Shown: positions 17,086-30,874 of the stretch, piece after piece | Numbering within the stretch: the first letter of the stretch is position 1 | Layout: the number at the start of each line of letters is the position of its first letter | NCBI RefSeq assembly: GCF_016806835.2 | Contig: NZ_CP086111.1 | Span: 3,837,471 to 3,901,470, forward strand | DNA: 64,000 nucleotides | From: Skermanella rosea | GTDB taxonomy: Bacteria > Pseudomonadota > Alphaproteobacteria > Azospirillales > Azospirillaceae | Direction: 5' to 3' | Notes under the pieces: generated by a model | Database searches by the model: none | The model's input: the letters and a program-made list of their open reading frames with translations, nothing else | Told to the model about the DNA's origin: nothing | Program-made: the position numbers and the translations under genes

Positions 17086-20000
17086 TCAGGCGAAAAGCTG
17101 GCCGTAGTCGTCCACTCCCGTGACTCCCACCAGCGACACCGTGGCGCCGTTGAACTGCAGCACCGTCGTGTCGGCACCCCCGGTACCGTCGCCGTCCACC
17201 TCGGTCACGCCGCGAAGACGCAGGCCCCCGTCCATCTCCAGCCGGTCCCCTTCCGCCGCATCGAAGTCGAGCAGGGTATCCTTGCCGCCGCCCCGGGACA
17301 CGACGAAGATATCGGCGCCTGCGCCCCCGTCGAGCCGGTCGTCGCCCGTGCCGCCATCGAGGCGGTCGTTGCCCGAACCGCCGAACAGGGCGTCCTTGCC
17401 GCTGCCGCCGAGAAGCGTGTCGGCACCGTCCAAGCCGCGGACCTCGTCGTCGCCGTTCCCGGCCCGGTAGGTGGTGGCGAAGCCGCCCGCGTCCTGGAAG
17501 CTGTCGGCCTTGTTGGTGCCGGCCACCATCCGGGCCGGGTTGCCCAGGTCGAGGCCCGCCAGCAGGGGATCATGGTCGGACACCCGGGCCGCGACCGAGC
17601 CGTCGAAATAGTCGGGGTCGCGCCCGAAATCCAGGTTGTAGTCGAGCGCGTCGGCCTCGTCGGCATTGATGTGCCACTCGGTGATGCCGGTCACCTGGTC
17701 CGCGAGGGTCCCGTTCGCCAGGATGTAGTCGAGCGAACCGATCTGCCCGTCGAACACGTAGGAGTACGGGTCGTCGATCCGCTCCTGAAGGTTCTCGTAG
17801 CCGGCAGCCTTCAGGGTATCGATCGGATCCTCCCGGAAATAGGAGTTGAGGTCGCCGAGGATCATCCTGTCGCCATCGTCGGTACCCGTGGGGTTGGTGC
17901 CCAGCCACTCGGTCAGGGCTTCGGCGGCCAGTTCGCGCTGGTTGTTCCAGCTTCCGGCGCCGTCTCCCCGATCGGCGTCCTCGCCCTGCCCCGATCCGCC
18001 CTTGGACTTGAAGTGGTTGGCGACCGCGGTGAACTGCTCGCCCGTCCCGGTCTCCTCGAAGGTCACGGCCAGGGCGGCGCGGCTGGTGTTCTCGCCGTTG
18101 AAGATGCCGCCGACGGTGCTCTCGGCCAGCAGTTCCGGCCTGACGTCCGAATCGTCCAGGACCGCCACGCCGGTGTCCCCGGCGACCCGGACCTCGTCCG
18201 GCTTGTAGATCATGCCGACGGCGATCGCGTCCCCGCCGACGAAGTCCTGCCCGGGGCGCACCCAGTCGTACAGCGTCTTCCCGGCCGCCGCGTTCAGCTC
18301 GCCGACCAGGTATTCGACCGCATTGCCGGACGAGCCCTCGATGAAATCGTTCTCCAACTCGACGAGGCCGAGCACGTCGGCGTCGAGTCCCAGGATCGCC
18401 GTCACCAGCTTGTCGGACTGGCGCTCGAACTCCGCCGGGCTGTTGGCCCCGCGCGGCTCGAACCCGTTCTCCGTCCTGTTGCCGCCGGCATCCAGCGTGG
18501 TGAAGTAATTCAGGACGTTGAAGCTGGCGACCTGCAGCGTGCCGCCGACCGGGTCGGGCTCGGCCGGGCGCTCGTTGGCGGAGACGAAGGTATTGTCGCC
18601 GTCCTCGACCGAACGGACCCGGTAGGCTCCCGCCGGGCCGAAGCCGAGCACGCCCGTCAGCCCGGTGACCGTGTCGCCCATGCGCGGCGCCGTCGCGGTG
18701 CCGTAGCCGGGCTCATCCGGGTTCGCGGCGGTGGGACCCGCGCCGTCGTCGTCGGGATCGAAGCCGTCCAGCAGGTCGATCGGCTGGTTCTGGCTGTTCA
18801 GGCCGTCGTCATAGGTGATCGAGCGGGATGCCAGCTGCCGGAGGTGGTCGGCGTAGCCCGCCGCATCCGGTTCGTTCGTCTGGGTGAACTGGTACGGACG
18901 ATCGTCCGCGGACTCGTCGATGCGGCCCGCCAAGCGGTCGCCCTCGCCGGCATAGAGTTCGATCTCGTTGAAGCGGTCGAGGTTGAACTGCTCGGTCACC
19001 GCCAGGGTCTGCGGGACGGTGACCAGCATGCCTTCATAGGCTTCCAGGTCGGGCTGGAAGCCGTTCGATGCGGAACCGGTGGTGCCGGCGGCCGGCAGGT
19101 CCATCTCCACCGCGAGCGCGTCGGCATCGGCCACCGCGCCGGGGGTCACGACCCGGATGTCGGCGGCCCCGGCGACGGTGAGCTGGGTCTCGCCATTGAA
19201 CTCCGTCACCGTCCCGGTCACCCGGACGAGATCGCCCTCGTCCACGTCGGCGCGGAGGGGGCCGGCCCCTTCATAGACGAAGATGCCTTCGGATGTGAGG
19301 CTGTCGGCGTCCCGGTCGGCCGCTTCCTCCATCAGGTAGAAGCCGCCGATCTCCCGCCCCGCGTCGCCGTCGCCGTTCTGGAAATCGCCGACCACGACGG
19401 CCTCGACGGTGACCCTGCCGCCGACGAGCGGGCTCGCCGTACCGCCGCCCTGGACCTCGGCGATCCGGGATATGCCGACATCGTCGTTGATGATGGTCGC
19501 CGTGGCGGAACCGTCGGCGATCCGTGCCTCACCGGCCGTCGCGGCAAGGTTGGACAGCGAAAGCGTGAAGGTCTCGTCAGGCTCGGGCACGGAGTCGTCC
19601 GCGATCTCCACGGTCACCTGCCGCGAGAGTTCCCCACCATCCTCAAAGGTCAGCGTGCCCTCGGCGGCGGTGTAGTCGCCGCCGGCGGTGGCGCTGCCGT
19701 CCTGCGTCGCGTAATCGACCGTGAAGGCCGCCGCGGCATCGGTGCGCGAGACGGTGAAGACCGCCGTTCCGTCCGCCTCGTTCACCGTGACGTCGCCGAC
19801 CGACACCTGCGTCGCTCCGTCGCCGGGCAGATCGGTGCTGGTGACGCGGATGTCGTCGATGCCGACCCACTCGTCGTTGCCGACGGCGTTGGTCGTGATG
19901 ACCCTCACCTGGAGTTGCGGCTGGTCGCCGGCCTCCGCCGGGAGCGCCACCGACACGGGGATCGACCCGCCGCCCAGGGCCGGGCCCCGGGTCGCGTCGG

Positions 20001-20460
20001 CCAGGTAGCCACCCTCGACAGTCGTCCAGTTTCCCGTCTCGCCGAGGCGGTACTGCACCGCGACCTGCTGGATGGCGTCATCGGGGCCGGTTTCCAGGTC
20101 GCGCGCATTGAAGGCCAGCTCGACGTTTTCCTGCCCGGTGGAGTCGAGATGGATCACGACATAGGGCGCATCGGCGGTTCCAGACCCGCTGAGCGCCACC
20201 GTCGGATCGTCGATCGCGAATTCCGTCACGCCGCCGGTGGCGAAGCCGTTGGGAGTGGTCTGGTTGGCATTCACGTCCATCTCATCGGACGTTCCGACCA
20301 CCGTGCGGGGGTCGGCCCCGGTCGCCGACGTCAGCCCGTCGCCGCGGTACCCCACGATCGACGGAACTCCGGACCAGTCGTCATTCGTCGCGATCAGGCC
20401 GGGCTCGCTCCAATCCTGCGCGAACGCGCCTTGGGAAAGCCGGTGATATTGGCTGGTCAT
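17086..20460 (-). CDS. Large secreted nuclease: Calx-beta, EEP nuclease and RTX repeats
   Basis: This 1,124-residue protein resembles ExeM/NucH-type extracellular nucleases. Residues 1-215 are an N-terminal extracellular-type region. Residues 217-325 form a Calx-beta domain (VNEADGTAVFTVSRTD; VPEPDETFTLSLSN), followed by an OB-like region (about 330-470). The endonuclease/exonuclease/phosphatase core spans about 640-967, with QVASFNVLNYF, VELEN, NHFKSKGG, LGDLNSY and the C-terminal VSDHDPLL catalytic pair. RTX calcium repeats (GGSGNDRLDGG type) lie at about 1000-1057. There is no Sec signal peptide, and the C-terminal RTX tail suggests type I secretion. No T1SS genes are adjacent. Roles in DNA scavenging or biofilm matrix are inferred. 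Confidence 0.88.
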   Translation of the reverse strand: MTSQYHRLSQGAFAQDWSEPGLIATNDDWSGVPSIVGYRGDGLTSATGADPRTVVGTSDEMDVNANQTTPNGFATGGVTEFAIDDPTVALSGSGTADAPYVVIHLDSTGQENVELAFNARDLETGPDDAIQQVAVQYRLGETGNWTTVEGGYLADATRGPALGGGSIPVSVALPAEAGDQPQLQVRVITTNAVGNDEWVGIDDIRVTSTDLPGDGATQVSVGDVTVNEADGTAVFTVSRTDAAAAFTVDYATQDGSATAGGDYTAAEGTLTFEDGGELSRQVTVEIADDSVPEPDETFTLSLSNLAATAGEARIADGSATATIINDDVGISRIAEVQGGGTASPLVGGRVTVEAVVVGDFQNGDGDAGREIGGFYLMEEAADRDADSLTSEGIFVYEGAGPLRADVDEGDLVRVTGTVTEFNGETQLTVAGAADIRVVTPGAVADADALAVEMDLPAAGTTGSASNGFQPDLEAYEGMLVTVPQTLAVTEQFNLDRFNEIELYAGEGDRLAGRIDESADDRPYQFTQTNEPDAAGYADHLRQLASRSITYDDGLNSQNQPIDLLDGFDPDDDGAGPTAANPDEPGYGTATAPRMGDTVTGLTGVLGFGPAGAYRVRSVEDGDNTFVSANERPAEPDPVGGTLQVASFNVLNYFTTLDAGGNRTENGFEPRGANSPAEFERQSDKLVTAILGLDADVLGLVELENDFIEGSSGNAVEYLVGELNAAAGKTLYDWVRPGQDFVGGDAIAVGMIYKPDEVRVAGDTGVAVLDDSDVRPELLAESTVGGIFNGENTSRAALAVTFEETGTGEQFTAVANHFKSKGGSGQGEDADRGDGAGSWNNQRELAAEALTEWLGTNPTGTDDGDRMILGDLNSYFREDPIDTLKAAGYENLQERIDDPYSYVFDGQIGSLDYILANGTLADQVTGITEWHINADEADALDYNLDFGRDPDYFDGSVAARVSDHDPLLAGLDLGNPARMVAGTNKADSFQDAGGFATTYRAGNGDDEVRGLDGADTLLGGSGKDALFGGSGNDRLDGGTGDDRLDGGAGADIFVVSRGGGKDTLLDFDAAEGDRLEMDGGLRLRGVTEVDGDGTGGADTTVLQFNGATVSLVGVTGVDDYGQLFA

Positions 20461-21353: not shown

Positions 21354-22958
21354 TCACGCCGCCGGCAGGAGTTCCTTCGTGTAGAGGCTCTGCCCGTCCA
21401 GGTCCTTCAGGGTCACCAGCATCACGCCCTCCTCGCTGATGTCCACCTGGCCGAAGAACTGCATCCCGGCCGATGGGGCCAGATTGGACTGCCCGTCCGG
21501 CGGGGCCTTCACGTACATCAGCTGCGGGCCGAAGGTGTCGTCCAGTTCGTTCGGGCCGAAGGTGCCGGCGTTCAGCGGACCGGAGACGAATTCCCAGAAC
21601 GGCTCGAAGTCCTGGAACTTGGCCTTGTTCGGATCATAGAAATGGGCCGCGGTGTAGTGGACGTCGGCGGTCAGCCAGACCGTGTTGCGGATGCCGTTGC
21701 GCCGGATGAAGCTCAGCAGGTCGGCGATCTCCAGCTCGCGGCCGCGAGCCGGGCCGTTGCCCTGGGCGATGGCTTCCGATCCGGTCTTGTCCTTGCCGTT
21801 GTCGTACACGATCACGCCGATCGGCATGTCGGACGCGATCACCTTCCAGGTCGCGTTCGAGGCCAGCAGGGCCTGCTTCAGCCAGCGGATCTGCTCGGAA
21901 CCCAGGATGGGGGTCTCCGATCCCATCTCCTCCTGGAGATTGGCGGTGTTGGGTCCGCGGTAGCTGCGCATGTCGATGCGGAACACGTCGAGGTGCGGAC
22001 CGTAGGAGAACTTGTTGTAGATCCGGTCGCGGTTCTCCGGGTCGTGCCGGATCGGCATGTATTCCAGGAAGGCCCGCATGCCGTTGGCGGCCAGCACGGC
22101 GGCGCTCTTCTCCTTGTAGCGCTGGTCGGAGTCCATGCGCTTTTCCCAGTACCAGTTGTTGGTCGCCTCGTGGTCGTCCCACTGGGCGAACATCGGCACC
22201 TCGGCGTTGAAGCGGCGCAGGTTCTCGTCCATCAGGTTATAGGCATGGGCGCCGCGGAAATCGCCCAGCGTCTCGGCCACCTTGGACTTCGCCTCGGTCG
22301 TGACGTTCTTCCAGACTCCGCCGCCCGGCAGTTCCTTGGTCTCCGGGATCGGACCGTCGGCATAGATCGTGTCGCCGGAATGGATGAAGAAGTGCGGCTC
22401 TGTCCGGCGCATCGCCTCGTAGATGCGCATGCCGCCGAAATCGGGGTTGATGCCGTATCCCTGCCCGGCCGTGTCGCCGGACCACACGAAGCGGACCCGG
22501 CCGTTGCCCGGGGCGGTGCGGAACTGGCCGGTCACCGGCTCGCTGAAGCTCTTCAGGTCGGACAGGTCCTGGAAGCTGACGCGGTAGAACACGCGCTGGT
22601 CGGCCGGCAGCCCGGACAGGTCGATCCGGGCGGTATAGTCGCTGTCGGTGACGGCGACCGGGCCATCGAAGCGCCTGGCGTTCCTGAAGCTCTCGGTCGT
22701 TGCGACCTCCACGACCATGCGGGCCGGCCGGTCGGCCCGGCTCCAGACGATCGCCCGCCCGCCGGACAGGTCGCCGGACTGGACACCGTAGGGCATGGCG
22801 ATGCGGCGGCTGTCGGCGGTGATGATCGCCGGAGCCGCCTGGGCCAGCGCCCGCCCGGCGGTCGAGGCCGCGACCAGCAGACCGCCGCTTGCCAGCGCCG
22901 AATTGTACAGGAACGAGCGGCGGGTGACCCACCGCCGGGACTCAGGGCTATTGGACAT
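21354..22958 (-). CDS. phoD: PhoD-type alkaline phosphatase/phosphodiesterase, Tat-exported
   Basis: This 534-residue metallophosphoesterase carries a twin-arginine signal (RRSFLYNSALASGGLLVAAS) and should act in the periplasm or outside the cell on phosphate mono/diesters. After the N-terminal beta domain (PYGVQSGDLSGGRAIVWSRA) the catalytic core shows FVWSGDTAGQGYGINPDFGG, FFIHSGDTIYADGP, QWDDHEATNNWYW and WLTADVHYTAAHFYDP, all PhoD landmarks for the Fe/Ca centre. Length matches the family. No Pho box was recognised upstream. It is monocistronic. Confidence 0.92.
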   Translation of the reverse strand: MSNSPESRRWVTRRSFLYNSALASGGLLVAASTAGRALAQAAPAIITADSRRIAMPYGVQSGDLSGGRAIVWSRADRPARMVVEVATTESFRNARRFDGPVAVTDSDYTARIDLSGLPADQRVFYRVSFQDLSDLKSFSEPVTGQFRTAPGNGRVRFVWSGDTAGQGYGINPDFGGMRIYEAMRRTEPHFFIHSGDTIYADGPIPETKELPGGGVWKNVTTEAKSKVAETLGDFRGAHAYNLMDENLRRFNAEVPMFAQWDDHEATNNWYWEKRMDSDQRYKEKSAAVLAANGMRAFLEYMPIRHDPENRDRIYNKFSYGPHLDVFRIDMRSYRGPNTANLQEEMGSETPILGSEQIRWLKQALLASNATWKVIASDMPIGVIVYDNGKDKTGSEAIAQGNGPARGRELEIADLLSFIRRNGIRNTVWLTADVHYTAAHFYDPNKAKFQDFEPFWEFVSGPLNAGTFGPNELDDTFGPQLMYVKAPPDGQSNLAPSAGMQFFGQVDISEEGVMLVTLKDLDGQSLYTKELLPAA

Positions 22959-23100
22959 ATCGCGGATTCTCCCGTTCCGGTTTATTCGTCCGCGGAAGCT
23001 ATCCGGTGCCCATGACAGTTTTTCATGCGGAAGCGACGCAAACGGGGAACCCCTTACGGCTAGCCCATGCCTGCGGGGACCGTTGCCGCGCCCTCCCCCC

Positions 23101-24297
23101 TCAATCCCCGTGCAGGGGCATCGTCACGGTCACCCGCGTGCCGCCGTCGCCGTTCGCGCCCTCGATCTCCAGCACGCCTTCGACCCGCGTCGCCAGGGCG
23201 CGTATCAGGTTCATGCCGAGGCTGTCGGTCGCCTCCTCCGGCATGCCCTTGCCGTTGTCGGTGACTTCGAGCCTGAGGCGCTCGCCCGGCAGGACGGTCA
23301 GGGAAACCCGGATCTCGCCCCGGGCACCGTCCGGGAAGGCGTGCTTGAAGGCATTTGTCACGATCTCGTTGATCAGCAGGCCGAGCTGGATCGCCATGTC
23401 CAGGCCCAGCGCCACGTTGTCCGTCTCGACCATCAGCTCCGGCCCGTCGCCCCGCGCGGTGAAGGAGGTCCGCAGATGGGCGCACAGGTCCCGGACATAG
23501 CCGGAGAGATCGACGCGGGCGAGATCGTCGGACTGGTAGAGCTTCTCGTGGACGATGCTCAGCGAGTGGATGCGGCTGCGCACGTCGTCCAGTTCCTGCC
23601 GGACCAGCGGGTTGGTGGACTTGCGCGCCTTCAGGCTGACCAGGCTGGAGATGATCTGGAGGTTGTTCTTGACCCGGTGGTAGACCTCCTTCAGCAGCAC
23701 TTCCTTCTCGACGACGCTGGCGCGGAGCGCCGCGTTCGCCTCCAGAAGCTCCTCCTCCCGCTGGCGCAGGTCGTTCAGGCTGCTCAGCAGCTCCTGGTTC
23801 TGGCGCTGGACCTCCTCGACCGGGTCGAGCGGCTGCTGGCGGGCCAGCTCGTCCATCAGCTTGTTGATGAATTCCGGGATCGCCATGCCCAGCGGCTTGG
23901 ACAGGATCCGGGTCAGCCGGACCGTCGTCCCGTCCCCGGATGTCTCGATATCCAGCTTGTCCATCAGGCGCCGGGCGCCGAGCAGGCCCAGCCCCATGCC
24001 GGTGCGCGAGCGGTAGCGGCCGGCCAGGATGTCGTCCAGTTCGGAGATGCCCGGCCCCCGGTCGCCGACCTCGATCACCAGGGCCACCTTCCCGGCGACC
24101 TCCTGGATCCGGAACTCGGCCTTTCCGCCGGTGGCGTAGGCGTAGGCATTGCGGCAGACCTCCGACACCGCCGTGGCGATGCGGGTCTGGTCCTGGACCT
24201 CGAAGCCCATCCGGTCGGCGACCAGCCGCGCCCGCTGCCGGGCGTGGACGATGTCCCGGTCGTGGCGCACATGGACCGTGAAGAGCGGCCAGGTCAG
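23101..24297 (-). CDS. HisKA_2 histidine kinase with an N-terminal RsbT-like ATPase domain
   Basis: This soluble kinase of about 398 residues carries two GHKL ATPase folds. Residues 1-115 resemble RsbW/RsbT (AVSEVCRNAYAYATGG; DRGPGISELDD; GMGLGLLGARRLMD). A coiled coil follows, then a HisKA_2 phosphoacceptor helix (EVYHRVKNNLQIISSLVSLK, His near 207) and a second HATPase (LLINEIVTNAFKHAFPDG; VTDNGKGMPEEATDS). HisKA_2/HWE kinases are the usual phosphodonors of PhyR, and a PhyR-like gene heads this operon. Start is uncertain: CTG 24297 overlaps the previous stop (CTGA) and no ATG/GTG fits well until inside the ATPase domain. It has no sensor or membrane domain, so input may come through the stressosome-like proteins. 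Confidence 0.8.
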   Translation of the reverse strand: MTWPLFTVHVRHDRDIVHARQRARLVADRMGFEVQDQTRIATAVSEVCRNAYAYATGGKAEFRIQEVAGKVALVIEVGDRGPGISELDDILAGRYRSRTGMGLGLLGARRLMDKLDIETSGDGTTVRLTRILSKPLGMAIPEFINKLMDELARQQPLDPVEEVQRQNQELLSSLNDLRQREEELLEANAALRASVVEKEVLLKEVYHRVKNNLQIISSLVSLKARKSTNPLVRQELDDVRSRIHSLSIVHEKLYQSDDLARVDLSGYVRDLCAHLRTSFTARGDGPELMVETDNVALGLDMAIQLGLLINEIVTNAFKHAFPDGARGEIRVSLTVLPGERLRLEVTDNGKGMPEEATDSLGMNLIRALATRVEGVLEIEGANGDGGTRVTVTMPLHGD

Positions 24298-25313
24298 GGG
24301 TCTCTGGTCTTCAGTACGACGATCAGGTTGTCGTCCCGGACCCGCTTGAAATCGCGGTACAGCACGGCCGCGATCATCGTCGGGTGTCTTGTTGCCAGCC
24401 CCGGGTAGCTGTCGATATCCCATTTAGTGCTCAAGCCGTCCGAATGGAAAACCGCCAGCAGATCGCCACCGTAACCATACTCGTATTCCTTCACTTTCGA
24501 CATATTATGCCCGACGACGCCGTTTTGCGACACCGTTCGGGCCTGCCCTTCCCGCGACCGGAAGTACCCCGCGATATTGCCCACCCCGGCGAACAGGATG
24601 CGGCGTTCGACCGGCTCGATCCGCACCACGGCGACCGCGGCGCCGCGCGTTCCCCGCAATGCCCGGTGCAGATCCTCGACCAGGGGTTCGGGCATCCGCT
24701 CCTTCGACTGCCTGAACCCCGCCCGGGCGGCGTCCGCCGCGTCGGCGGCGCCGAGACCGTGACCGAGGCCGTCACACAGCAACAACAGCGTGGCGCCGCG
24801 ATCGGTCACCCGGACTGACCAGGTATCGCCGCTCACCGCCTCCCCGATGCGCGGAAGGCACACCGCCCCGACTTCCAGCCCGGGAAGGTCGGGCGCAGAC
24901 CGGCCACCGCCGGCCCGAACGCCGCAGACGATCGCGGTGCCGTTGCCTGGCTTGGAATAGACGTCGAAATGGTCGGACTGGCGCTGGATCGCGCCCAGCC
25001 CGGTGCCGGGACTGTCGCCGCTGGTGACGCCGTCCCGCAGGCAGTCCTGCACGTTGGCCATGCCCGGGCCGCTGTCCAGGGCGATCACGGTGACCTCGCC
25101 GCTGGTGCCCGACGACCGGGCGTCCAGCAGGATTTCCCCGCCGCCGCCGTGGCGCAGGATGTTGGTGGCTGCCTCGGTCACGACCAGTGCCAGACGGGCG
25201 CATTCCTGTTCTCCGAGACCGGCCGGGGACGCCAGCTGCACCGCCTTGCGGCGTGCCTCGGCGACCTGGGTCTGTTCCCGGACTGGGACCGAAACTACGG
25301 CCGTTCCGTCCAT
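24294..25313 (-). CDS. RsbX-like SpoIIE phosphatase with N-terminal RsbT-like ATPase domain
   Basis: A 339-residue cytosolic fusion. Residues 1-140 form an anti-sigma-factor type HATPase (VVTEAATNILRHGGGGEI; DSGPGMANVQDCL; GTGLGAIQRQSDHFD). Residues 150-335 are a PP2C/SpoIIE phosphatase with the metal motif LCDGLGHGLGAADAA, the HSDGLS block and the C-terminal DDNLIVVL. In stressosomes RsbX removes phosphate from RsbR/RsbS to reset signalling. Here the fused ATPase could also bind STAS proteins. It overlaps rsbT-like by 19 nt and the kinase by 4 nt, consistent with coupled synthesis. Confidence 0.85.
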   Translation of the reverse strand: MDGTAVVSVPVREQTQVAEARRKAVQLASPAGLGEQECARLALVVTEAATNILRHGGGGEILLDARSSGTSGEVTVIALDSGPGMANVQDCLRDGVTSGDSPGTGLGAIQRQSDHFDVYSKPGNGTAIVCGVRAGGGRSAPDLPGLEVGAVCLPRIGEAVSGDTWSVRVTDRGATLLLLCDGLGHGLGAADAADAARAGFRQSKERMPEPLVEDLHRALRGTRGAAVAVVRIEPVERRILFAGVGNIAGYFRSREGQARTVSQNGVVGHNMSKVKEYEYGYGGDLLAVFHSDGLSTKWDIDSYPGLATRHPTMIAAVLYRDFKRVRDDNLIVVLKTRDP

Positions 25314-25732
25314 GATGCGACTTTCACTATGGTTCCCTCGCCCGGCGCGGACCGGATCTCGAACTCCTTGCAGAGGCGCTTGGCGCCGCTCAGTCCAAGC
25401 CCGAGACCGCCGCCCGTGCTATAGCCGTCCTTCAACGCCAGGGCGATGTCGGCAATTCCAGGCCCCCGGTCGCTGAAGATCATTTCGACCTTGCGCCTCG
25501 ACATCCGGCCGACGATGGCGATCCGCATCTCGCCTCCGCCGCCATAGTCCAGCGTGTTGCGTGCCAGCTCGCTGGCCGCCGTGACCATGCGGGTGGTCTC
25601 GATCTTCGAGGCTCCGATGGTCGCCATGGCGGCCGCTGCCACCCGCCGGACCCGGCTGACGTCGGCTCCGGTCTGGATCGGGATCACCTCGCCGTCGGCG
25701 GCTCCTCCCTCTTGCCCCGGCTCAAGCCTCAT
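25295..25732 (-). CDS. RsbT-like anti-sigma/serine kinase
   Basis: This 145-residue protein is a single GHKL ATPase (SELARNTLDYGGGGEMRI; SDRGPGIADIALALKDGYS; GLGLGLSGAKRLCKEFEI), the signature arrangement of RsbT. It should bind and phosphorylate the RsbR/RsbS STAS proteins encoded just upstream and be released to activate a partner. Overlaps both neighbours (11 nt and 19 nt). The ATG has a poor ribosome site, and a GTG 45 nt downstream has AGGAG about 14 nt before it, so start is uncertain. In Bacillus the freed RsbT activates RsbU; no RsbU gene is present here. Confidence 0.85.
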   Translation of the reverse strand: MRLEPGQEGGAADGEVIPIQTGADVSRVRRVAAAAMATIGASKIETTRMVTAASELARNTLDYGGGGEMRIAIVGRMSRRKVEMIFSDRGPGIADIALALKDGYSTGGGLGLGLSGAKRLCKEFEIRSAPGEGTIVKVASWTERP

Positions 25733-26123
25733 GGAGGCGCGCGGCCTCCTCGTCGGCGCCCCGACGGATCAGCTCCATGCCGCGGTCCACGTCCAGGGCG
25801 GTGCGGACGCCCTGCAACGACATGCCCAGTTCGACCAGCGTGATGGCGACCGCCGGCCGCATGCCGACGATCACCGTGGACGCGTCCAGGATGCGGGCGA
25901 TCGCCGAGATGTTGGCGAGCATGCGCCCGATGAAGCTGTCCACCACGTCCAGGGCGGAGATGTCGATCAGGACGCCCTTGGCGTGTGTCTTGGCGATCCG
26001 CTCGGCCAGATCGTCCTTCAGCGTCATGATCATCCTGTCCTCCAGATCGACCTGGATCGTCAGGAGCAGGCAGTCGCCGATCTGGAAAATCGGAATGCGG
26101 TTCGGCTCGAGGAAATGGGTCAT
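25722..26123 (-). CDS. RsbS-like single STAS-domain antagonist
   Basis: A 133-residue protein starting MTHFLEPNRIPIFQIGDCLL, with AGGA 6 nt before the ATG. It is a lone STAS domain. The phosphorylatable serine of RsbS corresponds to Ser in DVVDSFIGRML, and the following hydrophobic strand (STVIVGMRPAVAITLVELGM) is typical. RsbS scaffolds stressosomes with RsbR and holds RsbT until phosphorylated. It is 17 nt downstream of rsbR-like and overlaps rsbT-like by 11 nt. Confidence 0.87.
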   Translation of the reverse strand: MTHFLEPNRIPIFQIGDCLLLTIQVDLEDRMIMTLKDDLAERIAKTHAKGVLIDISALDVVDSFIGRMLANISAIARILDASTVIVGMRPAVAITLVELGMSLQGVRTALDVDRGMELIRRGADEEAARLHEA

Positions 26124-26140
26124 GTCGATCCTGCCGCCGT

Positions 26141-26998
26141 TCAGTGGCCCGTGAAGGTGACGCCGGTGCGTCTCAGCGCATGGGCGAAGGCGCTCTGAAG
26201 GTCGGCCTTGGTGGCGACCTGCGGCAGTTCCACGCCGAGATGAACGATGGTCTGGGCGATCTGCGGCCGGATGCCGCTGATGATGCATTCCGCCCCCATC
26301 AGCTTGGCCGCAGCAGCGGTCTTCAGCAGGTGCTGGGCGACCAGGGTGTCGACCGTGGGAACGCCGGTGATGTCGATGATCACGATCTCGGCCTTGCTCT
26401 CGACCACGGCTTCGAGCAGGTTTTCCATCACGATCTGCGCGCGCGAGCTGTCGAGCGTGCCGATCAGGGGAAGCGCCACGATGCGATCCCAAAGCTGCAC
26501 CACCGGTGTGGACAGTTCCAGCATCTCCTGCTGCTGGCGCTGGATGATCTCCTCCCGGCCGCGCAGATAGATGTCGTTCGTATAGAGGCCCAGCTTGTCG
26601 AGCAGCACGGTCGCCGACCAGGCCTCCTCGACCAGGGTCTGCGGGTCGTTCTTGTACTGGTCGCGCAGGCATTCGAAGATCGGCTGCTTGAGCGCCAGGA
26701 TGAACGTCGCGGTCTCGGTCGGGGTGAAGCCGTGATCGACCCGGTAGTTTGTGACCTCGGTCAGCATGTCCCGGACATCCTGCCACTGCTCGCTTTCGAT
26801 ATCGAAATTGACCCCGTTCTGGGTCGCGGCGGTCAGATGCGACAGGAAGCTGCGCGACTGGCGGCGGATCTCCGCCTCGCGCATCAGATCGGCGCGAAGC
26901 ACACCGACATCGGATTGGGCTGCGATCCAGTCGGTCAGGATACGATCCTGGTACCGGCTCAGGAGAGCCGGCAGCTTGCTGCCGGAAGAGTCGGGCAT
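26141..26998 (-). CDS. RsbR-like stressosome sensor with C-terminal STAS domain
   Basis: This 285-residue soluble protein has a helical N-terminal sensory half (1-155) that resembles RsbR N-termini (LSRYQDRILTDWIAAQSDV...FILALKQPIFECL) and a C-terminal STAS domain (165-280). IIDITGVPTVDTLVAQHLLK carries the phosphoacceptor threonines, and GAECIISGIRPQIAQTIVHLG is the RsbR-type second half. The N-terminal half has no obvious heme-globin histidine pattern, so the input signal is unknown. Start ATG follows AGAAGAAAAG. It is the second gene of the operon, 15 nt after the PhyR-like gene. Confidence 0.88.
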   Translation of the reverse strand: MPDSSGSKLPALLSRYQDRILTDWIAAQSDVGVLRADLMREAEIRRQSRSFLSHLTAATQNGVNFDIESEQWQDVRDMLTEVTNYRVDHGFTPTETATFILALKQPIFECLRDQYKNDPQTLVEEAWSATVLLDKLGLYTNDIYLRGREEIIQRQQQEMLELSTPVVQLWDRIVALPLIGTLDSSRAQIVMENLLEAVVESKAEIVIIDITGVPTVDTLVAQHLLKTAAAAKLMGAECIISGIRPQIAQTIVHLGVELPQVATKADLQSAFAHALRRTGVTFTGH

Positions 26999-27013
26999 CT
27001 TTTCTTCTTCTCG

Positions 27014-27817
27014 TCAGTTCATCTTCTGGGGCGGATGGACCGCCAGCGCCTGACCGATCGCGGTCCGGAGAACCTCCGGCTGGAACGGCTTGGCGATCAG
27101 GAAGGCCGGCTCCAGCTGTTCGCCGGTCAGCAGGCGTTCCGGAAAACCGGTTATGAAGATCACCGGGAGGTTGGTCGACCGCAGGATCTTCTGGACGGCC
27201 TTGATGCCGCTGTCGCCGCCCTTGAGCTGGATGTCTGCCAGGATGAGTTCCGGAGCGGTTTCCTGGGCGAGGCGCAGGGCCTCCTCCTCGCGGGCGGCGG
27301 AACCGCATACCTGGTGGCCCATGTCGGTCACCAGGCCGGCGATGTCCTCGGCGATCAGGGGCTCGTCCTCGATGATCAGGACGCGGACGGAAGTCTGCTT
27401 GGCCAGTTCGGCCCGGGCCGCCTCCAACTCGTCGCGGATCTCGTCCGTGGTGGCGCTGAGGATGCGGCCCGCCTCGTCGAACGAGAAGCCCTCGAGCGAG
27501 ATCAGCAGCAGCACCTGGCGCTGGCGCGGCGGCAGCCGGCCGACGCCCTGGATCACCTTGGCATCAGGGTTGCCGTCGGCGATGTCGGGCACGGCTTCGG
27601 GAAACGTCTCGTCCACCAGGGACCAGACCTCGTGGAACAGGGCGAACAGTTCGAGCCGGATGTTGCCGGCGGGATCGATGCGGTCGGGCTCGGCAAGATA
27701 GGCTTCGAGGCACACCCGGACATATTGGTCGCCGCGATCCTGGGAACCCAGGAGAGCGCGGGCATAGCGCCTCAAATAGGGAAGAAATTTCACAATCTCT
27801 GCGGAGGATTCCGGCAT
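27014..27817 (-). CDS. PhyR-like response regulator (sigma-like output domain plus receiver)
   Basis: A 267-residue regulator. Residues 1-135 resemble an ECF sigma factor (FLPYLRRYARALLGSQDRGD; LPPRQRQVLLLISLEGFSFDEA), and residues 143-260 are a receiver with acidic pocket IIEDEP, phosphoacceptor Asp195 (LILADIQLKGGD) and VIFITGFPERLL, the FATGUY-type variant seen in PhyR. In Alphaproteobacteria phosphorylated PhyR sequesters NepR and frees sigma EcfG, launching the general stress response. No nepR or ecfG lies in the window. It heads the stressosome-like operon and so may read the output of that module. No convincing EcfG promoter was found in the 270-nt upstream gap. Confidence 0.85.
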   Translation of the reverse strand: MPESSAEIVKFLPYLRRYARALLGSQDRGDQYVRVCLEAYLAEPDRIDPAGNIRLELFALFHEVWSLVDETFPEAVPDIADGNPDAKVIQGVGRLPPRQRQVLLLISLEGFSFDEAGRILSATTDEIRDELEAARAELAKQTSVRVLIIEDEPLIAEDIAGLVTDMGHQVCGSAAREEEALRLAQETAPELILADIQLKGGDSGIKAVQKILRSTNLPVIFITGFPERLLTGEQLEPAFLIAKPFQPEVLRTAIGQALAVHPPQKMN

Positions 27818-28087
27818 TCTGATCTCAACGGTCCATCATGAGGCTGATCTGTCCGCCTTGTTTCCGGCGGGGTTCGATTCCGAAAGTTCCAAATATCATA
27901 GTCGCGTATCCGACGGATGGGGGTATTCGGCCTAAACCCTTTCGCGGCGGATGAAGATCGCGGTCCGACCGGCAACGCCTCAAGTCATGAAAGGTTGCAG
28001 GCACGCGTGAATTGACACGGCCCGCGGCGGGGAGCAAAGGTCTGGACGATCGTCCCAGCCTGCCCCGCAGCCAGCGAGAAAGCCGCC

Positions 28088-28813
28088 TTGCCCATCAGTT
28101 CCGAGGTCGAACTCTACGATCCGGTGAAAGCCTTCCTCGAAGTCCAGGGATACGACGTCAAGGGGGAGGTGCGGAGCTGCGACCTGGTCGCCGTCCGCGC
28201 CGGCGAACCCCCTGTCCTGGTAGAACTGAAGCTGCGGTTTTCCCTGTCGCTGGTCCTCCAGGGCATCGACCGGCTGGCCCTGTCGGACCGCGTCTACCTC
28301 GCGGTCCCCCGGCCGACCGGCCGGCGGGCATCGGGACCCAACGCGAACGACGGCAATGTCCGCAAGCTGTGCCGGATGCTGGGGCTGGGGCTGCTGACGG
28401 TCGATCCGGCGGCCCGCGCCGGCCGGCAGGTGGATCTGGTGATCGAGCCGGCTCCCTACCGACCGCGGGTGAACGCCAAGCGCGCCCGGCTGCTGCTGAA
28501 GGAGCACGGCCGGCGGCTCGGCGACCCCAACCGCGGCGGATCGAGCAAGGTCAAGATCGTCACCGCCTACCGCCAGGAAGCCCTGCGCTGCGCGGCCCTT
28601 CTGAAGGCGAACGGCCCGATGGCCGTGGCGGCGCTGCGGCGGGACGGCGACGCCCCCAACGCCGCCGGCATCCTCCAGCGGAACGTCTACGGCTGGTTCG
28701 AGCGTGTCAGCCGCGGCACCTACCGCCTGACCGGGGAGGGGCTGCGCGGGCTGGAACAGTTCGCGCCGGAAATTCCGGCGGAGGAGTTGGCCGAACAATC
28801 CGCCCCGCGGTGA
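28088..28813 (+). CDS. DUF2161-like PD-(D/E)XK-fold protein
   Basis: A 241-residue cytosolic protein. The N-terminal half carries a PD-(D/E)XK pattern: VEL near residue 7, CDLVAVRAGEPPVLVELKLR supplying the D...ExK triad, then RLALSDRVYLAVPRP. The C-terminal half looks like a winged helix (AYRQEALRCAALLKANG...VYGWFERVSRGTYRL). That two-part layout is what I recall for DUF2161, annotated as putative phosphodiesterase. The start is TTG, since no ATG or GTG precedes the conserved block. Function is unknown. It lies 42 nt before the PCMT fusion gene, possibly in the same transcript. Confidence 0.75.
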   Translation: MPISSEVELYDPVKAFLEVQGYDVKGEVRSCDLVAVRAGEPPVLVELKLRFSLSLVLQGIDRLALSDRVYLAVPRPTGRRASGPNANDGNVRKLCRMLGLGLLTVDPAARAGRQVDLVIEPAPYRPRVNAKRARLLLKEHGRRLGDPNRGGSSKVKIVTAYRQEALRCAALLKANGPMAVAALRRDGDAPNAAGILQRNVYGWFERVSRGTYRLTGEGLRGLEQFAPEIPAEELAEQSAPR

Positions 28814-28855: not shown

Positions 28856-30874
28856 ATGGGCAGCACGGATTTCGCCGAGAAGCGCCGGATCATGGTGGAA
28901 CGCGACATCGCGCCCCGGGGGATCGACGACGCCGGCGTTATCGCCGCCCTGGGCCGGGTCCCGCGGGAGCTCTTCGTCCCCGAGTACCTGGCCGAACTCG
29001 CCTACGACGATTCGCCGCTGCCGATCGAGCAGGGCCAGACGATCTCGCAGCCTTTCGTCGTCGCCCTGATGATGCAGGCGGCCGAACTGGTTCCCGGCGC
29101 CAGGGTGCTGGAGATCGGCACGGGGTCCGGCTATTCGGCCGCGGCGCTGGCGGCGATGGGATGCGAGGTCTATTCGATCGACCGGCACGCCTCCCTGGTG
29201 GAGGCCGCCAGGACCCGGCTCGAGCGGGCGGGCTGCGCGGGCGTCCATCTCCGGGCCGGCGACGGGACCCTCGGCTGGCCGGAGGCGGCGCCGTTCGATG
29301 CCGTCATCGTGACGGCCGGCGGACCGAGCCTGCCCGAGCCCCTGTCCCGTCAGCTCAAGGTCGGCGGGCGGATGATCATGCCGGCCGGCGCGGAGGCCGG
29401 CGGCCAGCGGCTGGTCCGCCAGCGGCGGACCGGAGAGGACGCCTTCATCGAGGAGGATCTCGGCCGCGTCGCCTTCGTGCCGCTGATCGGCGCCCATGGC
29501 TGGCCGGAGACGACCCGCACCGAGGCGAGGCGCCGGTCCCCCGCCCTGCCGCCCGACGCGGCGGAGCGGATCCGCGATGCCGCCGAGCCGCTGCCCGAGG
29601 TGGACGACGAGCGGTTCGGCGTGCCGTTCGATCGGATCGCCGACGCCAGGGTCGTGCTGCTGGGCGAGGCCACGCACGGCACCTCCGAATTCCACCGCGC
29701 CCGCGCGCGGATCACCGAGCGGCTGATCGCCCGGCACGGCTTCTCGATCGTGGCGGTCGAAGCCGACTGGCCCGACGCCGAGCGGATCGACCGGTATGTC
29801 CGCGACCGGCCGCCGGCCGGGTCCGACGAGACGGCCTTCGCGCGCTTTCCCGACTGGATGTGGCGGAACGAGGAGGTGGCCGGCTTCGTCGATCGGCTGC
29901 GGCGCCATAACGACGCGATCGAAGATCCGGGTCGGCGGGTCGGGTTCCACGGCCTGGACCTTTATGGCCTCGACGGGTCGATCGCCGCCGTTCTGGATTA
30001 TCTGGACAGGGTCGACCCGGAGGCGGCGGCAGTCGCGCGGGAGCGGTACGGCTGCTTGGCGCCATGGCGGCACGCGCCGGAAACCTATGGCCGCGCGGCG
30101 CTGACAGGCGGGTTCGCCAGCTGCGAGAAGGCGGCGGTGGACATGCTCCGCGACTTGCTCGACCGGCGGCTCTCCCGGCTGGTTGCCGCCGGCGACGAAG
30201 GCTGGCTGGACGGGGAGCAGAACGCCCGGCTGATCGCGTCGGCCGAAGAATATTACCGCACGCTGTATATGGGGGCGACCAACAGCTGGAACCTGCGCGA
30301 CCGCCACATGTTCGAGACCCTCCGGTCGGTCATGGCGGCCCGCGGACCGGGGGCGAAGGCGGTGGTGTGGGCCCACAATACCCATGCCGGGAATTCGGCT
30401 GCCACCGAGATGGGACGCCAGGGACAGGTCAACCTGGGGATGCTGTGCCGGGAGGCGTTCGGAACCGAGGCGGCGCTCGTCGGGTTCGGGACCGACCGCG
30501 GGACGGTCGCCGCGGCGTCGCGGTGGGGCGGCCCGATGGAGGTGATGGAGGTGCCGCCGTCGCATCCCGACAGCTACGAGCACCTGTGCGCCCGCTCCGG
30601 CAAGCCGCGCTTCCTGCTGGACCTGCGGCCCGGACGGAACGGGCCGCTGGCCGAGGATCTGAAGCGGTTCCGGCCGGAGCGGGCGATCGGCGCGGTCTAC
30701 CGCCCCGGGGCCGAGCGGGAGAACCACTATTTCCAGGCCTCCCTGCCCGGCCAGTTCGACCTTTACGTCTGGTTCGACCGGACCGCCGCGGTCCGGCCGC
30801 TGGCGCCTACTGCACCGCTGCCTGACCGAACAGGAAGTTCGGCAGGAACAGGGAAATCCACGGCACATAGGTGA
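28856..30874 (+). CDS. Fusion of L-isoaspartate O-methyltransferase and erythromycin-esterase-like domain
   Basis: This 672-residue protein joins two enzymes. Residues 10-205 are a PCMT repair methyltransferase, with QTISQPFVVALMMQ, SAM-binding VLEIGTGSGYSAAALAAMG (from residue 84) and DAVIVTAGGPSLPEPL. Residues 260-645 are an EreA/B-like esterase: LLGEATHGTSEFHRAR (catalytic His), AVEADWPD, the ARFPDWMWRN region and VVWAHNTHAGNS. The order and the linker are intact, with no frameshift. PCMT methylates damaged aspartyl residues; the esterase domain's substrate is unknown and need not be a macrolide. The last 22 residues are low-complexity and overlap the converging dctM gene by 68 nt. Confidence 0.88.
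   Translation: MGSTDFAEKRRIMVERDIAPRGIDDAGVIAALGRVPRELFVPEYLAELAYDDSPLPIEQGQTISQPFVVALMMQAAELVPGARVLEIGTGSGYSAAALAAMGCEVYSIDRHASLVEAARTRLERAGCAGVHLRAGDGTLGWPEAAPFDAVIVTAGGPSLPEPLSRQLKVGGRMIMPAGAEAGGQRLVRQRRTGEDAFIEEDLGRVAFVPLIGAHGWPETTRTEARRRSPALPPDAAERIRDAAEPLPEVDDERFGVPFDRIADARVVLLGEATHGTSEFHRARARITERLIARHGFSIVAVEADWPDAERIDRYVRDRPPAGSDETAFARFPDWMWRNEEVAGFVDRLRRHNDAIEDPGRRVGFHGLDLYGLDGSIAAVLDYLDRVDPEAAAVARERYGCLAPWRHAPETYGRAALTGGFASCEKAAVDMLRDLLDRRLSRLVAAGDEGWLDGEQNARLIASAEEYYRTLYMGATNSWNLRDRHMFETLRSVMAARGPGAKAVVWAHNTHAGNSAATEMGRQGQVNLGMLCREAFGTEAALVGFGTDRGTVAAASRWGGPMEVMEVPPSHPDSYEHLCARSGKPRFLLDLRPGRNGPLAEDLKRFRPERAIGAVYRPGAERENHYFQASLPGQFDLYVWFDRTAAVRPLAPTAPLPDRTGSSAGTGKSTAHR

Follow-up and report, generated by a model that had tools for sequence, protein, structure and literature searches.

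A minus-strand run of six genes in a 64,000-nucleotide stretch of the genome of the soil bacterium Skermanella rosea (contig NZ_CP086111.1, positions 3,837,471 to 3,901,470; hereafter the window) brings together a Bacillus-type stressosome, a histidine kinase and PhyR, the response regulator of the alphaproteobacterial general stress response. This operon (27817-23101) is probably a stressosome-controlled input to that response, a reading that we favor with some reserve. Bacillus-type stressosomes and PhyR cascades act as general stress hubs that evolved separately. If an operon does join them, the hubs would be interchangeable parts, and the alphaproteobacterial response would gain a cytoplasmic sensor of multiple signals.

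Six tightly packed genes encode PhyR, stressosome proteins and a histidine kinase

The genes lie in the order phyR, rsbR, rsbS, rsbT, rsbX-like and histidine kinase (Table 1). In this order they are separated by gaps of 15 and 17 nt and then overlap by 11, 19 and 4 nt, exactly the distances claimed in an initial annotation of the window. Its family names for the products (PhyR, RsbR, RsbS, RsbT, RsbX and a HisKA_2 kinase) were confirmed by domain scans with Pfam and NCBIfam models. From the spacing alone we infer a single transcript. All six genes are present in the same order in five of the five Skermanella genomes, and the arrangement is therefore not due to chance. A promoter and terminator scan across 22950-28100 detected a single terminator-like site and nothing promoter-like, a yield below that of shuffled sequences. 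About 24 bp just 5' of phyR (27818-27842) are nearly identical in the five genomes and much of the upstream region is variable; the conserved stretch is possibly a leader or a regulatory element. The operon encodes no RsbU, RsbV, RsbW or SigB, as had been noted before for RsbU. It does encode three RsbT-like domains, namely RsbT itself and the N-terminal heads of the RsbX-like protein and of the kinase, with pairwise identities of 28-33%. Catalytic and predicted phospho-site residues are intact.

Judged by sequence, the RsbRST part is genuine. RsbR, composed of RsbRD_N and STAS domains in Pfam, matches the solved RsbR chain 9o3o over residues 20-278. T218 and T250 align with the threonine residues of that chain, are invariant in 38 of 38 aligned sequences and are predicted, by analogy, to be phospho-sites. 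By E-value, the best fold match of the predicted RsbR model was the Listeria innocua stressosome RsbR, with a TM-score of only 0.48. RsbS matches Bacillus subtilis RsbS (6jhk) with an E-value of 2.6e-30, and its Ser-63, invariant in nine of nine aligned sequences, is likewise a predicted phospho-site. RsbT scored above the Pfam cut-offs for HATPase_c_2 and HATPase_c and clustered with the RsbTs of other modules in the domain tree described below; no solved relative of it was found by sequence. In the RsbX-like protein, an HATPase_c_2 domain at about residues 13-126 precedes a C-terminal SpoIIE/PP2C domain and clusters with RsbX heads elsewhere, away from RsbT and the kinase heads. The name RsbX was thus right as to family, given the SpoIIE domain, but the protein is not the plain single-domain PP2C of the Bacillus type, having a second RsbT-like domain fused at its N-terminus.

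The kinase carries an RsbT-like head and a HisKA_2 core

The head of the kinase is an HATPase_c_2 domain (about residues 1-133) that is 33% identical to RsbT. A helical linker (140-153 and 159-226), the HisKA_2 domain and HATPase_c follow; a predicted model of the protein (predicted TM-score 0.43) was used for domain boundaries only. The HisKA_2 match had an E-value of 4.8e-25, and H207, invariant in 25 sequences, is the predicted phospho-acceptor histidine of this domain. In the head, the ATP-site residues that we take to be the N-box, G1 and G2 motifs are invariant or nearly so in 64 relatives. The Pfam scan found no membrane domain and reported no RsbU_N domain, in agreement with the earlier description of a kinase that lacks a membrane domain and has its own RsbT-like ATPase domain. 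The kinase gene starts with CTG in the window and in three relatives and with TTG in the fourth, in a 4-nt overlap with the rsbX stop. Among NCBIfam models, that of PhyK (NF051872) is closest to the C-terminal kinase part, which alone matches it; the score of 148.5 bits is below the equivalog cut-off of 750. HisKA_2 is the class of PhyK-like kinases; the head of the protein thus corresponds to the stressosome side and its core to the PhyR side.

Stressosomes with headed kinases recur in nine phyla

RsbS relatives were collected from named genomes, and the best 80 of 553 were examined as loci, 73 of which show 2 kb or more upstream of rsbS. RsbR, RsbS, RsbT and RsbX occurred together in 76 of these loci, 66 of which also encoded a kinase bearing an RsbT-like head. 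The kinase came after rsbX in 66 of the 68 loci showing both and ahead of rsbR in two. In a tree of RsbT-like domains from a selection of loci (93 rows), 31 kinase heads from nine phyla formed one clade (98/95) apart from RsbT and the RsbX heads, which shows them to share common descent. Many forks of the tree are open, and its row L064_RsbT_8778 is really a piece of the RsbX region of that locus. The 30 heads other than that of the window are all N-terminal to the kinase part; the weakest are two actinobacterial ones (31-32% identity). On these comparisons, RsbR, RsbS, RsbT, a headed RsbX and a headed kinase constitute a standing and widespread module. The initial annotation could not say if the neighborhood had been described elsewhere. 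Stressosome plus kinase is no one-off, and the link to PhyR is particular to Skermanella in the genomes searched.

We tentatively raise the possibility that the RsbT-like head is an adaptor which, replacing RsbU, places histidine kinases directly under the stressosome as its clients in nine or more phyla. The head is in this sense a candidate answer to how stressosomes without RsbU pass their signal on. Were the adaptor idea true, stressosomes would be general controllers of two-component signalling, and Skermanella would show that exchange of the kinase core suffices to connect a stressosome with a general stress response that is unrelated to it.

Such an exchange is suggested by the distribution of kinase cores. 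We scanned 64 non-Skermanella kinases from the best 80 loci, namely every one that has a head and a length of 350 amino acids or more; some of them are cut by contig ends. HisKA was present in 64 of 64, HATPase_c_2 in 62 and a receiver in 50; HisKA_2 was absent from the ten families found in this set. Two further kinases from within the order (L044 and L045) have HisKA too. HisKA_2 cores were found in the stressosome kinases of Skermanella and of three other alphaproteobacterial genomes (G175, G284 and G409). A kinase search through 385 genomes of the class, in which four candidates were scored per genome and members can be missed, gave a full-length match only in G175, one cut by a contig end in G284 and, in G409, a weaker one next to RsbS. 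When a tree was built from RsbR, RsbS and RsbT joined end to end (42 rows), a branch supported at 100/100 separated the six HisKA_2 modules from the 36 others; the G409 branch is long, and the kinase class was scanned for most of the 36 rows, not for L186, L187 and L190, with no kinase found at L189. The simplest history that this tree suggests is a single swap, in which the core was replaced and the conserved head kept. A canonical PhyR, as defined below, is present in four of the four HisKA_2-core lineages (Skermanella, G175, G284 and G409) versus four of the 11 other RsbS genomes compared. The hypergeometric chance of about 0.05, calculated by hand with kinship ignored, makes this association only suggestive.

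PhyR of the window is canonical and linked to a stressosome in Skermanella

PhyR matched NF006623 with 308.9 bits (cut-off 240) and the Pfam families PhyR_sigma2, PhyR_sigma-like and Response_reg, the sigma-like part preceding the receiver. Its matches among solved chains included 3n0r (E-value 5.7e-63) and 4qic, which is named PhyR (1.9e-58). D195 is the predicted phospho-acceptor, with T223 and K243 also in the receiver; the three sites were named by what we take to be the general rules for receivers. The host genome (7.76 Mb in seven contigs) encodes three proteins with both PhyR parts: the window PhyR (308 bits), one at C1:3063925 (268) and one at C1:2020559 (235.5, below the cut-off of 240). 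In a tree of 51 rows, several with long end branches, the window PhyR, its four genus relatives, the PhyR of genome G001 and eight PhyRs of other alphaproteobacterial families formed a 14-row clade (100/100). The window protein is 47-56% identical to the canonical PhyRs of other families versus 36-38% to its own paralogs. It is the only canonical PhyR of the genome. That it might be a spare paralog is ruled out by the tree, where the two genome paralogs lie outside the canonical clade. PhyR-like proteins, including those of Azospirillaceae (for example L143-L166), occur in most of the 82 genomes of the order; the order rows in the tree are canonical only for Skermanella and G001, and the rest form a divergent clade. 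A NepR-like gene, recognized by motif or BLAST, lies beside five of the eight canonical PhyRs of other families (L211, L212, L214, L215 and L216), four of these five also having an extracytoplasmic function (ECF) sigma gene. The PhyRs of G175 and G284 and the other copy of G261 have no adjoining NepR-like gene.

The initial annotation had proposed a search for conserved co-occurrence of PhyR with RsbRST. This linkage was seen in all five Skermanella genomes and nowhere else in three surveys. Among the 82 genomes of the order, 13 are positive for RsbS and five of these have PhyR nearby, all Skermanella; the other eight, represented by nine stretches, one of which (L050) starts at a contig end, gave no match to the PhyR sigma-like part. 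In the 385 genomes of the class, with up to 10 RsbS candidates scored per genome so that members can be missed, PhyR was near RsbS in two of 13 positive genomes, both Skermanella. Contig ends truncate four (L186, L190, L191 and L192) of the 11 non-Skermanella stretches from the class. Two linked cases, again both Skermanella, occurred among the best 80 named loci. A wider linkage beyond the genus was accordingly set aside.

A proposed route from the stressosome to EcfG

In the route that we propose, RsbR, with its sensor and STAS domains, and RsbS would form the core, RsbT would act as switch kinase and the RsbX-like phosphatase would reset the system, the histidine kinase being a client of the core via its RsbT-like head. 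Stress and RsbT would change phosphorylation at T218/T250 of RsbR and S63 of RsbS, altering the seating of the kinase head on the core. The change would travel through the helical linker and reach the HisKA_2 domain, where H207 would be phosphorylated; its phosphate would pass to D195 of PhyR. Phosphorylated PhyR would then bind NepR, and EcfG would be freed. By analogy with known systems we infer how each step works chemically. That PhyR would release EcfG follows from the known pathway (PMC3999984); passages of that paper mention the stressosome and PhyR without linking them.

The step from kinase to PhyR is well motivated, because the kinase class matches, the operon is shared and no other response regulator is encoded there; nor was a receiver match found in 16-kb stretches of the four genus relatives. 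PhyR had been named earlier as the likely target, and this is further supported by a HisKA_2 core that sits, unlike that of its relatives, behind a conserved head, and by the standing of this PhyR as the genome's canonical copy. A link between stressosome and kinase is suggested by the conservation of the head and, in the predicted model of low overall confidence, by its location immediately ahead of the helical linker that leads to the phospho-acceptor domain. That the head docks to the STAS core is conjectural, as is the sign of the signal.

Several observations weigh against the proposed route. The Skermanella phyR adjoins neither a NepR-like nor an ECF sigma gene, a neighborhood that is common for phyR though not indispensable, and the candidates for nepR and ecfG are not adjacent to the operon. 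The sole NepR match of the genome, about 1.8 Mb away, is marginal, scoring 26.8 bits when the genome was scanned and 25.6 as a protein, with a cut-off of 25.7. The promoter pattern of the general stress response is GGAAC-N16/17-CGTT, and it was not found before the operon. G001 has an orthologous PhyR (72% identity) and no RsbS hit, so PhyR can exist without a stressosome. In G175, G284 and G409 the HisKA_2 stressosome kinase is unlinked to PhyR, which is encoded elsewhere. The operon kinase need not be the sole input to PhyR: Skermanella genome G080 encodes a membrane MASE4-HisKA_2 kinase (L185, G080:C1:2102538-2103185), with a core 42% identical to that of the window kinase, which is a possible second input.

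The distant NepR match has an ECF sigma gene beside it, and both are kept in the five genus genomes and in G001. This locus (L038, G000:C1:2059000-2070000) encodes a small protein that resembles NepR and also matches a zinc-finger anti-sigma family slightly below its cut-off; the sigma gene is 92-100% identical across the genus and G001. GGAAC-N16-CGTT is readable before it in the window genome; G078 has a hit at a similar distance, as has G001 with N17. In G000, G079, G080 and G001 this pattern outnumbers its reversed control, but in G078 and G081 it does not. The NepR-neighbor sigma is a candidate EcfG; the one most similar to four EcfGs that are linked to phyR in other families is, however, C1:796767.

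Other roles for RsbT, the kinase head and PhyR

Released RsbT could itself be the messenger, binding or phosphorylating the kinase, with the head as its heterodimer partner or target. We regard this as unlikely. RsbT does bind and activate RsbU in B. subtilis, according to PMC12143880, which deals with kinases bearing RsbU_N domains. The window kinase, however, has no reported RsbU_N domain, and binding of Vibrio RsbT to the downstream VvD1, a protein not compared with the window kinase, was reportedly not detected. An improbable alternative makes the head a serine/threonine kinase for RsbS and RsbR, so that the protein would be a dual kinase writing on both the stressosome and PhyR, a feedback arm rather than a receiver. 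The identity of the head to RsbT and its near-invariant ATP-site residues fit such a role, but the modules already contain RsbT, from which the heads are set apart in a clade of their own. It is very improbable that PhyR is merely co-expressed, being driven by other HisKA_2/HWE kinases while the operon kinase serves another regulator: the restriction of the linkage to Skermanella, the membrane kinase of G080 and the distant PhyRs of G175, G284 and G409 would allow it, but no other response regulator lies in the operon, the 16-kb stretches from the four genus relatives gave no receiver match, and the HisKA_2 core and PhyR share a tight operon in five of five genomes.

Relation to known systems

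A stressosome-controlled input to PhyR would resemble several known systems in part. With the Bacillus and Listeria RsbRST-X system, which leads to RsbU-RsbV-RsbW-SigB, the operon has in common the RsbR, RsbS and RsbT families, the Thr/Thr and Ser sites and a feedback phosphatase; it differs in the fusion of RsbX to an RsbT-like domain and in an output made of a histidine kinase and PhyR. Gram-negative RSTX modules (Vibrio vulnificus VvD1-VvD2, and HisKA/REC types in other Proteobacteria; PMC9237108) likewise have rsbRSTX followed closely by a kinase and no SigB. In those described, RsbR is of the globin type and the outputs are PP2C, cyclic di-GMP or HisKA/REC; the paper raises phosphorylation of the downstream kinase by RsbT as a possibility, and section 10 of that paper mentions neither PhyR nor a HisKA_2 core; a 'Sigma' domain named in one figure legend may mean B. 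subtilis SigB. A canonical PhyR ortholog and a HisKA_2 kinase core are shared with the PhyR-NepR-EcfG systems and their PhyK/HWE kinases, whereas in the window phyR is not beside nepR or ecfG, an RsbT-like head takes the place of a membrane sensor and the kinase scores below the PhyK cut-off. The Moorella thermoacetica stressosome, a case cited in PMC12143880, is reported to control a diguanylate cyclase, a non-sigma output as in the window, but through RsbU_N-GGDEF and with no histidine kinase or PhyR. Varied stressosome outputs are thus already known, and PhyR inside a stressosome operon was found only in Skermanella. We found no paper about a stressosome-PhyR link in the open-access literature; an earlier mention is possible, for example in the 2005 and 2017 stressosome reviews of Pane-Farre and colleagues.

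Table 1. Genes of the operon, with positions in the window.
Gene	Position	Strand	Product
phyR	27014..27817	-	PhyR-type anti-anti-sigma response regulator, 267 aa
rsbR	26141..26998	-	RsbRD_N + STAS co-antagonist, 285 aa
rsbS	25722..26123	-	single STAS domain, 133 aa
rsbT	25295..25732	-	HATPase_c/HATPase_c_2 switch kinase, 145 aa
rsbX-like	24294..25313	-	RsbT-like HATPase_c_2 + SpoIIE/PP2C phosphatase, 339 aa
kinase	about 23101..24297	-	HATPase_c_2 + HisKA_2 + HATPase_c

Two other genes of the window were also annotated. On the plus strand, 28856-30874 encodes a fusion of a protein-L-isoaspartate methyltransferase domain with an erythromycin-esterase-family domain, a family name that is no proof of resistance. 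On the minus strand, 17086-20460 encodes a large protein with Calx-beta and RTX-type calcium-binding repeats; it is perhaps a secreted nuclease, with a weak endonuclease/phosphatase match that falls slightly short of the cut-off.

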